Shown here: positions 38,587 to 50,170 of the stretch, in pieces | Numbering within the stretch: position 1 is the stretch's first letter | Layout of the letters: each line of letters starts with the position of its first letter | Assembly (NCBI GenBank): GCA_025360045.1 | Contig: JANYCY010000058.1 | Coordinates: 1-50,541, forward strand | Source: Janthinobacterium sp. | GTDB taxonomy: Bacteria; Pseudomonadota; Gammaproteobacteria; Burkholderiales; Chitinibacteraceae | Direction of reading: 5' to 3' | Length of the DNA stretch: 50,541 nt | Translations under genes and position numbers: made by a program | Notes under the pieces: generated by a model | Seen by the model: the letters and a program-made list of their open reading frames with translations, nothing else | Told to the model about the DNA's origin: nothing | The model's database searches: none

Positions 38587-40218
38587 TTAAGTGCGGTACT
38601 GGCTAATTAAAGTGTTGAGTGTCACCGCAATTTGGCGCAGCTCTTCTGATAGTTCGCTGGTGCTGCTGGCTGTAGCGTGGTTTTCTTCGCTGGCCTGCGC
38701 GATTCTTTCAATATTATTGGCGATATCTTGACTGGCGGAGCTTTGCTCGCCAATGGCATCGGCCATTTGTGCAATATCGCTGACGGTGTTTTTAGATTGC
38801 TGCTCCAAATGCACCAAAGATTCGGCCACGCTTTGTGTATTGCGCACCCCACTTTCTACCATACGGCTGGCGTGTTGCATGCCCTCTGAGGCGGTACTGG
38901 TGTCTCTTTGCACTGCTTCAATTTTACTGGTGATTTCAGTGGTGGCTTGGGTGGTGCGTTCGGCCAGTTTTCTGACTTCGTCGGCAACCACGGCAAAGCC
39001 ACGGCCTAAATCCCCTGCTCGGGCTGCTTCAATGGCGGCATTGAGTGCCAGTAGATTGGTTTGATCGGCGATGTCCTTAATGACCATCACAATGCTGCCA
39101 ATTTCACCCGAACGCTGGTTAAGCTGGTCGATAACTGCCGCAGAGCGGTTGATGTTTTCGGCAATTTGGCGGATTTCATCTGCCGTGCGATTGGCAGAAA
39201 GTGCGCCTTCGGCGGCGGTGGAGGCCCCTTGTCTTGCTTCAGCATTTAATCCTTCTGCACTCGATGAAATCATATTTACACTGACGGATAGTTCTTCAAC
39301 TGCAGCGGCCGTTGCGCTAGAAGCAGAAGATTGTATTTCTGATGAGTCTGTCATTTGCCTTGCTGCAGTAGAGAGCATTTCGGCGGAGCTGAGTAATTGA
39401 GTGGAGTTTTTCCGAGATTCGCTAATCACTTTGCTCATGCTGATCAATAAGCGGTTAATTACTTTCGACGATTGGCTGATTTCATCGGAGCCAGATTGAT
39501 CCAATCTAAGGGCTAAATTACCTGTGTTGTCGATTTCAGTGATGGTTTCTTGCAGAGCTGCGAGTGGGCGGCGAATGCTGCGAATAATCATTAGTGCGCT
39601 GGCCACGCCAATTAAAATCGCAAAAAACATGAGGGTGACAGAAATGCTGATGGTTGCCGCTGTTAGCGTACTGAGTGTTTCGTCCATACTTTTGGCACGG
39701 CTAATGGCATCGTCCGCTAGTTTGGTTAGGCCTTCTTGCATGGCGCGAACAGGCTCTTTGAATTTAGAGAAGTCCGCGTTGATTTCGCTGGCTTTCTGGT
39801 ATTTGCTGGCTTGAATATCTTTGAATAGGCCTTTAAAACCTTCGCCATAGGCGATCAGGTTTTGGCTTAATTCTTTGATTTTTTGCAGGTCGTCTGTTTT
39901 TGCATTGCTTTCACTGCTCTTGATTGCGGAATGGGTTTTTTCGAGCGCTTGATCCCATTTCGTTTTGTATTCATTAATTTTTTCTGGGTTTTCGTAGTTC
40001 AGGAAAATATCTTTCTCGAAACGACGTAAATCAGTGATTTGATGGCGTGCTTCAATCAGGTCTAGCGAGTAGCTTAGATCATGCTCCAGCATATTTTTGG
40101 CCAGAGCTTCTTCTCTATTAAGCCCCCAAAGGCCGATTGCACCCACGCTGATTAATAAAAAAAGCAGCAGGGCAAATCCACCTGCCAGCCTTGCAGCAAT
40201 TGTAAATTTAGATAGCAT
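38587..40218 (-). CDS. Methyl-accepting chemotaxis protein with four-helix-bundle sensor
   Basis: A 543-residue transmembrane chemoreceptor. Segment 1 is at about residues 11-31 and segment 2 at about 188-212; between them lies a periplasmic four-helix bundle (35-185) with the pattern [17 protein letters not shown] typical of this sensor type. HAMP covers about 213-265, and the signalling hairpin with [22 protein letters not shown] and [15 protein letters not shown] is canonical. No CheR-binding pentapeptide is at the C-terminus (ISQYRT). ATG 40218 has GGAG 6 bases upstream; an in-frame TTG at 40230 is rejected. Ligand unknown. Confidence 0.94.
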
Positions 40219-40339
40219 GGAATTCTCCAAAGGGGAAGCAGTTGTTATAGATTGTAGAGTTGATTGACCGTATTGCCAGTAGAAAGCGCAATAGGCCGAA
40301 GAATATTTAAAAGAGGGGATTTAATCCGGCAGATAGGCG

Positions 40340-47559: not shown

Positions 47560-47596
47560 AAAAAGCCCCAAGGAGTAAGTATCCTTGGGGCTTTTT
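47560..47596. terminator. Bidirectional terminator between the phosphoesterase and chemoreceptor genes
   Basis: AAAAAGCCCCAAGGA (47560-47574) pairs with TCCTTGGGGCTTTTT (47582-47596) over 15 bases around a 7-base loop. A second small hairpin (AGCATTCC 47529-47536 with GGAATGCT 47545-47552) precedes it. It ends both convergent transcripts. Confidence 0.93.
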
Positions 47597-47630: not shown

Positions 47631-49949
47631 TTAGCGCCGAATCGCTGCCGCCAATTTGCTGGCCGTGCTGCTGGCGTTGATGCTGTCGTTATTCCAGTAT
47701 TCAAACACAATTTCTATCCATGCTTTTTTCAGGTCATCCTGCACGGCCATATTGTGTGCCCAAGAGGGTACGAGAGTGTTTTTGCTGGAGGATTGTGCAA
47801 AGTCTTGGGCGGAGGCTTTGCCATAGGCGTCGAGCTTTTGCACGTCAATATCGGTGCGGGCTGGGATGCTGCCCTTGTGCTTGTTGTAGGCGATTTGCGC
47901 TTCGGCACTCATCAATAGCGTTGCAAAATCGTTTTGAGCTTGCAGCCTTGCAGGATCATCTTGTCGGAAGAAGGTGAGGGTGTCCGCAGCAAAGCTGTAT
48001 TCGCCATTTTGCGTAGGAGACGCCCAGAAGAGGTAATCGGTGTTGGGTTGCTTGTTAGCGGTATCAAACTCGCCTTTTACCCAGTCGCCCATTAATTGCA
48101 TGGCAGCCTTACCGTTAATGACGTCTGCTGTGGCCAAATTCCACTCGCGCCCTGCAGGGTCGGGTGAGCAGTAGGGTTTGAGACGACGGAAGGTTTCGAG
48201 CGCTTTGATAGTTTGTGCGCTGGTGAGGGTGGCGTGATCGAGTTGGCTAAATGCTTTGAGGTAATGGGCTGCACCGCAAACACCAAGGGTCACGGCTTCA
48301 AATAGTGTGGCCACTTGCCATTTTACTTCGCTATGCGCCAATGGCGTAATGCCTTCGGCTTTGAGTCGATCGCACAGATTAAAAAACTCATCCCATGTGG
48401 CCGGTGCTCGATTTTGATTCACCCTGCGCATAATGCTGGCATTGGCCCAAAGTACGTTGACACGGGCAACGCCCAGCGGCACGGCGACATAATGGCCCTC
48501 TGCTTGCATTTGATCATTCAGCACCTTGGGTAAAATTTGCGCCCAGCGCTGCTCTTGAGCCTGCGCGTCAAGATTAGCTAACAAGCCACGGCCGATCCAG
48601 TTCTGAATTTTTACCCCGCCAATGGCTACGGCAGTGGGTAGCTTGCCGTCTTCAACCGCCTTTTTAAGCATGCCTGGCACATCTTTGCCGCTGTGCTTAT
48701 CGGCCCAGTGATGGCCAATTTTATTGAGCCTAGCCTTGATGTCAGCTACCGCGCGAAAGCCGCTGGCCGCAAACCAGCCATGCAAGACTTCAATATCACC
48801 CAACTGAAAATGTCCTACGGTTTTCATTAGATCACGAGCACGTACATCGAGCTGCTCTAGGGCACGCTTAGCTTGTAATAGTGCCGAATCGCTGGATTGG
48901 CTCATACCGTTGATTTGTTCGATTGATTTAGCCATCGTGGTGCTGGCTGCGGTTTGCTCACGAGTCGACTCGGCAATCTCTTTAACTACAATGACGACCT
49001 TGGCCATTTTTTCGCCAATGGCCAGCATTTGTTTGCGTGCTTCTTCTGCTCGCTCGGTGCTGCCTGCAATGCGCTCGGCCGTGTTGTCCATGGTGCTCAC
49101 GACATTTTGCGTGTCACGATCAACGGCTTCAATGCGATTGGTGATTTCAACGGTGGCATTGGCGCTACGTTCGGCGAGTTTGCGCACTTCATCGGCCACC
49201 ACGGCAAAACCTCGTCCTTGCTCACCCGCACGGGCGGCCTCAATGGCGGCATTGAGTGCTAATAAATTGGTTTGCTGTGCAATATCCTTAATGACACCCA
49301 CAATACTGCCAATTTCTTGCGAGTTTTGGCTGAGCGTATTCATCGTTGTGCCTAGCGCTTGGAATGAAGCGGTCATTTGGCTGACTTCATCGGCGACGCC
49401 TTGCACCGCAATGGCACTCACATTAGAAAGGGCCTGCGTTTCTTCAACGGCTTGGTCTACATCGTTTGCATTGTTAGCAATGAGCGCAATGCTGACGGTG
49501 ATCTCTTCAACGCCTGCCGCAGAGGAGGCCGCATAGTCAGATTGGGCATGGCTATCGTTAACAAGCTGGCCGGTTACGCTGCTGAGTTCGCGTAAACCCA
49601 GCGATAGCCCCTCCATATCGCGTTGAACCTCACGAAAGGTGCTTTGTAAATTTTGGCTAAATAAATTAAAGCCACGGGCAATGTCACTAAACTCATCGTC
49701 AGATTGAATCGCCATCCGAATGCTCAAATCCCCGTCGTTCTTGCTCAGGTATTGCATCGTATTGCGCAAAGATTCAAGAGGGCGCAGTAAATAACGCAGG
49801 CCAAAATATTGCAGTGCTGCGGCCAGCGGAATAAAAAGTAAGCAAGAGAGTAGGGCAGAGTTGAATACGGGGGTGGTTGCCGCAATCGCAAGGGCGCATA
49901 AGGTATTGACGGTAATGGCAAAGGCCAATAGCCGAGTACTGACAGACAT
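47631..49949 (-). CDS. Chemoreceptor fused to a sugar-type ABC solute-binding protein domain
   Basis: A 772-residue fusion. Membrane segments lie at about residues 8-24 and 31-50 with only about six residues between, so there is no periplasmic sensor. HAMP follows (51-105), then a full chemotaxis signalling domain to about 383, with hairpin tip [22 protein letters not shown] and [15 protein letters not shown] (221-261). From about 385 to the end is an extracellular solute-binding protein family 1 domain closest in pattern to glucose/mannose-binding proteins ([78 protein letters not shown]). It has no signal peptide, so normal topology puts it in the cytoplasm. AGGAG lies 6 bases before ATG 49949. 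The reading frame is continuous across the junction. Sugar or other ligand inferred only. Confidence 0.93.
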
Positions 49950-50170
49950 GTGATGCTCCTATATATCTCTGGATTCAGAGCCAAAAGTCGTGGTGGATTT
50001 TTGGCTGTCAAATGCATCGAAGCCTTTTTAGCTTCTTATTAAAGGGTGAAGTGTTGGGCTGTATTAACTAAGACTGGGGTGTTGATGCCTACGAAAGTAA
50101 TAATATTCTTATGTTCTTCTTGGGGCGGGAGCCATTCTATACAAATCCTTGTGCTGGATTGATAATTTTG

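Follow-up and report, generated by a model that had tools for sequence, protein, structure and literature searches.

The window, that is, the whole stretch of 50,541 nucleotides that was analysed, carries a gene in which a chemoreceptor is joined to a solute-binding protein (SBP). We read its product, with a probability of about 60%, as a membrane-anchored chemoreceptor in which a periplasmic glucose-binding protein has been moved to the cytoplasm, to become the C-terminal sensor of an internal sugar-like ligand. From sequence, this ligand is predicted to be, probably, something other than simply glucose. The original prediction had been that of a receptor reading the internal sugar pool: the fusion turned out to be real and old, and the fold very probably cytoplasmic, but glucose itself did not hold up as a likely ligand.

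Architecture of the protein and side of the membrane

The frame (47631-49949, minus strand) runs from ATG to stop over 772 codons with no internal stop, in line with the predicted continuous protein of 772 residues. An AGGAGC 5' of the ATG (49955..49960, minus strand) is the likely ribosome-binding site, and an inverted repeat between A and T runs (47560..47596) is the likely terminator of both converging genes. Two membrane helices with a short loop between them occupy residues 5 to 51 or so (49797..49937, minus strand). Hydropathy windows of 19 residues exceed 1.6 there only, as two segments, and a weak full-length model puts the helices at residues 3-29 and 32-54. The loop has 4 residues in the window and 4 to 17 over 22 fused proteins, with rough, script-made boundaries; the periplasmic sensor domain that typical MCPs hold between the two helices is absent from the window protein. 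A HAMP domain follows (residues 52-102, 49644..49796, minus strand; Pfam PF00672, 6.7e-11), and after it the MCP cytoplasmic hairpin, delimited by Pfam and by invariant columns (residues 103-381, 48807..49643, minus strand). The MCPsignal match (PF00015, 1.1e-44) covers residues 201-349 (48903-49349), and the hairpin tip is invariant in 22/22 fused sequences. Hydropathy and Pfam agree with the two membrane segments, short loop, HAMP and full hairpin that had been described. The NCBIfam model CtpM, a Pseudomonas MCP, aligns query residues 35-382 with model positions 211-557, which are almost equal lengths, while the E. coli-type receptor models NF007309, NF011622 and NF011615 leave 26 to 31 surplus residues in the query. 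This CtpM-like hairpin length is what one would expect in the longer receptor class, presumably the one named 40H.

The two parts meet at a junction placed by alignment at residues 377-390 (48780..48821, minus strand). Four of its residues, G379, F381, L383 and D385, are unchanged in 22/22 fused proteins, and it is gap-free in the 14 fused proteins that were aligned in full. Because the junction is invariant and free of gaps, the first SBP strand appears to follow the last adaptation helix almost without a linker. Between the two parts there is neither a stop nor a signal peptide, and no signal-like hydrophobic stretch occurs in the 38 residues that precede the SBP domain.

The solute-binding domain (residues 385-772, 47634..48797, minus strand) has the fold of glucose-binding proteins, according to Pfam, PDB search and model. 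The Pfam profile SBP_bac_1 matches residues 428-658 (1.2e-16), and a PDB sequence search with residues 384-771 returned P. putida ppGBP (5dvf) at E 1.8e-84, then 5xpj, 8hqq, 4r2b and 2b3b, which confirms the predicted glucose-type binding domain of about 390 residues. An AlphaFold2 model of the domain (pLDDT 87.6, pTM 0.86) superimposes on ppGBP with a TM score of 0.93. Its rmsd is 2.1 to the unliganded form (5dvf), 1.9 to a deletion mutant (5xpj) and 2.9 to the galactose-bound form (5dvj), so that the model is nearer the first two than the last. The full-length model is poor (pLDDT 57.1, pTM 0.31) and too weak for judging coupling. With ppGBP, GltB and GtsA (5dvf, 5dvj, 8hqq, 4r2b), the fused domain shares the fold (TM 0.87-0.93, 35-39% identity), the five C-lobe sugar contacts and W36; it differs from them in having no signal peptide, in the loss of a Cys pair, in the replacement of several contacts and in its fusion to an MCP.

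Such binding proteins normally work outside the cytoplasm, and 77/77 standalone relatives have a signal-like stretch ahead of the domain (10 residues of mean hydropathy at least 1.6 within the 38 residues preceding it). Both facts would favour an inverted or exported topology that puts the binding domain in the periplasm. Among the fused loci, however, 0/72 (duplicates included) have such a stretch. All 77 standalone domains contain exactly two Cys, at ppGBP positions 288 and 356, which presumably form a disulfide in these proteins. This pair is broken in 51/51 fused domains. Cys356 is replaced by Tyr in every one (Y709 in the window, 47823..47825, minus strand), and Cys288 is lost in 25 of the 51, having become Phe in all 20 members of a group A described below (F641 in the window, 48027..48029, minus strand) and Gly in 5 members of group B, which retains it in 26 of its 31 members. 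The loss concerns the conserved pair and not every Cys, as other, unconserved Cys bring the count to 2-5 per fused domain. The loss of a pair that every secreted relative has is expected when a protein moves to a reducing compartment. Lys and Arg residues follow the positive-inside pattern in 22/22 fused proteins: the N-tail has 1-2 of them and the 20 residues past TM2 have 1-4, against 0-2 for the loop. The signalling hairpin, for its part, must meet CheA and CheW. Because of the missing export stretch, the broken Cys pair, the charges and the need of the hairpin to face CheA, the binding domain is very likely cytoplasmic, as had been proposed, and the inverted topology offered earlier as an alternative is extremely unlikely.

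Spread and origin of the fusion

The fusion was found at 51 places, each checked for the hairpin, in 35/43 Chitinibacteraceae genomes and 10/11 genera; these 51 distinct domains correspond to 72 fused loci, some genes having been fetched twice. An SBP match at E 1e-30 is present in 40/43 genomes of the family, and the 3 genomes without one belong to one genus. When the SBP half was searched in the contig collection and the best 80 of 100 relatives were kept, the top 21 loci (at least 54% identity) had the MCP hairpin in the same frame in 21/21 cases, and the hairpin motif occurred in none of the other 59. Both this result and the 51 places in the family far exceed what chance would give. These 21 loci come from Iodobacter, Deefgea, Chitinilyticum, Chitinibacter, Amantichitinum, Silvimonas, Chitiniphilus, Chitinolyticbacter, Andreprevotia and Jeongeupia, plus one unclassified MAG. 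Fused domains fall into group A (20 places, 69-100% identity to the window) and group B (31 places, 46-58%), and 16 genomes have both. In the window's own genus, inferred from I. violaceini matches to be Iodobacter, only 4/9 genomes carry the fusion.

Outside Chitinibacteraceae, no fusion was found in the sampled order genomes, phylum genomes and plasmids, in a search seeded with this SBP subfamily; for plasmids, 73 records matched and none covered 80% of the query. A junction profile run on 398 phylum genomes matched with both its halves in the window's own genome only, where two other MCPs were matched in the MCP half. The spread, which the original prediction had left to be established, is thus family-wide, with none seen beyond the family in these samples. 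Two long frames were rejected as candidates: the sole frame above 700 aa that 250 order genomes gave beyond the family (G068) and a 1224 aa frame within the family (G037) are both secreted standalone proteins with a chance open frame upstream. Six standalone loci with more than 100 aa of upstream frame (L027, L041, L045, L052, L070 and L081) lack the hairpin motif by pattern match. The standalone count of 77 derives from 80 frames, from which L137 and L138 (overlapping L002 and L003) and the cut-off L082 were removed.

In a quick tree of 83 rows, all 51 fused domains form one clade with support 99, although this tree warns of long branches, L141 included. A more careful tree of 46 rows (8 of group A and 15 of group B, that is, 23 of the 51 fused domains, and 23 standalone ones), from which 23 pocket, Cys and signature columns had been removed, gives the fused clade 96/97. 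These trees point to one origin of the fusion. Group A is a clade in the 83-row tree, and group B the remainder out of which it branches. The nearest relatives are three secreted standalone SBPs, one of Iodobacter (G030) and two of Jeongeupia (G037 and G036), which join the fused domains in a clade supported at 100/100; the wider group with the ordinary glucose-binding-type proteins of the family has 99/92 in the 46-row tree.

These three orphan SBPs lie directly after ftsK (L154:7230-8540 in Iodobacter, L155:7568-8746 and L156:7701-8855 in Jeongeupia, all on the minus strand; the locus pairs are L141/L154, L115/L155 and L148/L156). No glucose permease match was found around them in the 15-16 kb fetched, and L156 has one ATPase match, at 30%, about 7 kb from the SBP. 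They share G92, L140-G141 and A302 with the fused domain and, unlike it, are standalone and keep the signal-like stretch, W35, E41, the Cys pair and the V-x-G loop. Since the pocket is partly remodelled in these secreted sisters while W35, E41, loop and cysteines are kept, a specificity change before the fusion is probable. The order of events was probably duplication, specificity change while still secreted, capture by an MCP and loss of the export-linked features.

The dN/dS ratio was 0.015-0.096 for the SBP part in 19/19 chosen pairs and 0.011-0.175 for the HAMP and MCP part in 18 pairs, one pair being saturated; as dS often exceeds 1, these ratios are rough. Both halves are nevertheless under purifying selection, the binding domain being, roughly, as constrained as the signalling part. 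Mean column identity over 22 fused proteins is 74% for the SBP domain, compared to 70% for the whole protein. MCP and SBP distances among these 22 proteins are correlated (Mantel r 0.917, with 0/2000 permutations as high), as for a unit that is kept together. An assembly error, a frameshift or a recent decaying fusion was rejected as a negligible possibility, given 51 fused places in 35 separate genomes, relatives with the same uninterrupted fusion, frames without internal stops and low dN/dS.

A remodelled binding pocket

Twelve glucose-binding residues are listed for ppGBP in PMC7927077. Six of them (W36, W250, W270, D303, K339 and H379) are kept in the window protein and are present in 51/51 fused domains; the other six are replaced in the window, mostly by Gly or Ala (W35G, E41G, G68S, Q90A, K92G and N301A). 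Q90A and N301A are found in 51/51 fused domains, as are N141G, H143A and a deletion of residues 64-66, and G188E is found in 50/51. Position 92 is Gly in 46 domains and Arg in 5. Position 41 is Gly in 20/20 of group A and Glu in 31/31 of group B, and W35 is replaced by Gly or Ser in 20/20 of group A and 10/31 of group B. Given these differences at W35 and E41, the two groups may bind different ligands.

The sugar pocket, then, is remodelled rather than intact. The original prediction had equated loss of pocket residues with decay; half of the contacts are indeed lost, but because the changes are fixed and conserved and dN/dS is low, they point to altered specificity instead. A sugar grip that is kept in part and otherwise emptied suggests a larger or substituted sugar, and not a loss of binding.

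The retained D303, K339, W270 and H379, and the fact that the closest solved relatives bind glucose or galactose, could be taken to mean that the fused domain has kept the ligand of ppGBP, glucose (or galactose), and senses free glucose in the cytoplasm. In the window protein, however, W35, E41, Q90, K92 and N301 have been replaced. PMC7927077 reports that the glucose response of P. aeruginosa GltB was abolished by W33A (equivalent to W35) and roughly halved by K90A (equivalent to K92). The genome also has a secreted paralogue in an ABC operon-like run (two permeases, an ATPase, a response regulator and a kinase) that keeps 11/12 glucose contacts, G68 being Ala. With six of twelve contacts replaced, glucose itself is therefore an unlikely ligand, and this alternative as a whole is very improbable. 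At L138:3163-4419 (minus strand) lies a second secreted relative (36% identity, with Ile at contact 92), followed downstream on the same strand by response regulator and sensor kinase genes; it is possibly a kinase-linked binding protein.

The same replacements and the deletion of residues 64-66 would also suit a domain that binds no small ligand at all, acting as an interaction or array-spacing module or holding a protein partner in the opened cleft, and cytoplasmic partners would require no transporter. We consider this explanation unlikely. None of the six kept contacts, the C-lobe set among them, varies over the 51 fused domains, and 87 positions of the SBP domain are identical across all 51. 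Moreover, part of the remodelling is also seen in the three secreted standalone sisters, which suggests that specificity had changed before the fusion.

Proposed function and comparison with known systems

In our preferred reading, that of a cytoplasmic sugar-like ligand sensor, the two-helix anchor would do no more than position the receptor within the array. An internal sugar-like ligand, larger than glucose or differently substituted, would make the Venus-flytrap domain close, and this closure would be passed on through the short junction, altering adaptation-helix packing. From the near absence of a linker, we infer that closure shifts the last adaptation helix and thereby CheA activity. 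The cell would then steer by an internal metabolite.

The surroundings of the gene point to no particular ligand. When gene neighbours were compared over 22 loci, no conserved one named a pathway, and some are common to close relatives only; the neighbours at L009, L019 and L025 are less sure, because there the gene picker took, in place of the fusion, a frame that overlaps it. On the downstream side, four genes of the window encode a semialdehyde dehydrogenase-like protein, a metallophosphatase, a dehydrogenase of isopropylmalate/isocitrate type and a Tsx-type channel. They give no hint of the ligand, and there is no ABC permease among these four, the other side of the fusion being cut by the window end. 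A sigma-28 promoter search gave no signal: the mean score was 8.24 compared to 8.14 for shuffles, and 0/54 upstream regions, some of them near copies, reached 10. The window's genome has 40 MCPsignal matches, of which some are fragments of a single gene; it also has CheA-type domains, with 5 H-kinase_dim matches. A second, ordinary chemoreceptor, with a four-helix-bundle sensor, HAMP and MCPsignal, is encoded in the window at 38587-40230 (minus strand). At L164:1368-4292 (minus strand), a gene for a receptor of 974 aa, which combines several PAS domains with HAMP_2 and MCPsignal, lies next to a CheW gene and to the last part of a CheA-like one.

GH18 chitinases occur in 40/43 genomes of the family, from which comes the guess, based on lifestyle and rather doubtful, that the ligand is a chitin-derived amino sugar or its phosphate. 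The co-occurrence of chitinase and fusion is weak, as 5 chitinase-bearing genomes are without the fusion and chitinase absence is limited to one genus. In that genus, three genomes (G025-G027) have neither GH18 (E 1e-15) nor an SBP match (E 1e-30) and keep CheA-type domains. A fuller scenario, to which we give somewhat less than even odds, would have an SBP duplicated, respecified while secreted and captured once by a chemoreceptor, to serve the whole family as a sensor that directly reads a chitin-related sugar metabolite inside the cell, with taxis guided by uptake.

A 2020 paper (PMC7390727) recognises chemoreceptors with a C-terminal sensor as a subfamily that is little characterised and for which Pfam shows at least 17 domain types. 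According to a 2022 survey (PMC9602780), SBP profiles also match cytosolic proteins and the sensor domains of cytosolic or membrane signalling systems. A literature search over titles and abstract openings returned no paper describing this fusion. The class is thus known; new, as far as could be seen, are an SBP in this place and the family-wide conservation, single origin and relocation marks that go with it. Throughout the family, a binding protein has apparently been moved and retained as a sensor, and the sequence marks expected of such a move are present: the export stretch is gone, the Cys pair broken and the pocket rebuilt. Work on metabolism-dependent (energy) taxis has long asked if a metabolite inside the cell can guide bacteria directly. 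If the proposed function is true, taxis would be driven by what the cell has taken up, not by what is outside, and the protein would offer a natural system for studying how CheA can be controlled by a flytrap that closes at the distal end of the MCP hairpin.

Among known systems, C-terminal-sensor chemoreceptors such as the CZB type resemble the window protein in that their sensor is placed after the MCP hairpin; unlike in the CZB type, the sensor is here an ABC-type solute-binding protein of some 388 residues. The hemerythrin type is a further chemoreceptor with a C-terminal sensor. Maltose-binding protein is a separate, periplasmic protein that docks on its chemoreceptor from the periplasm. 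The likeness to that system is that a binding protein feeds a chemoreceptor; the difference is that the binding protein is covalent and internal in the window protein, and separate and periplasmic in the maltose system.
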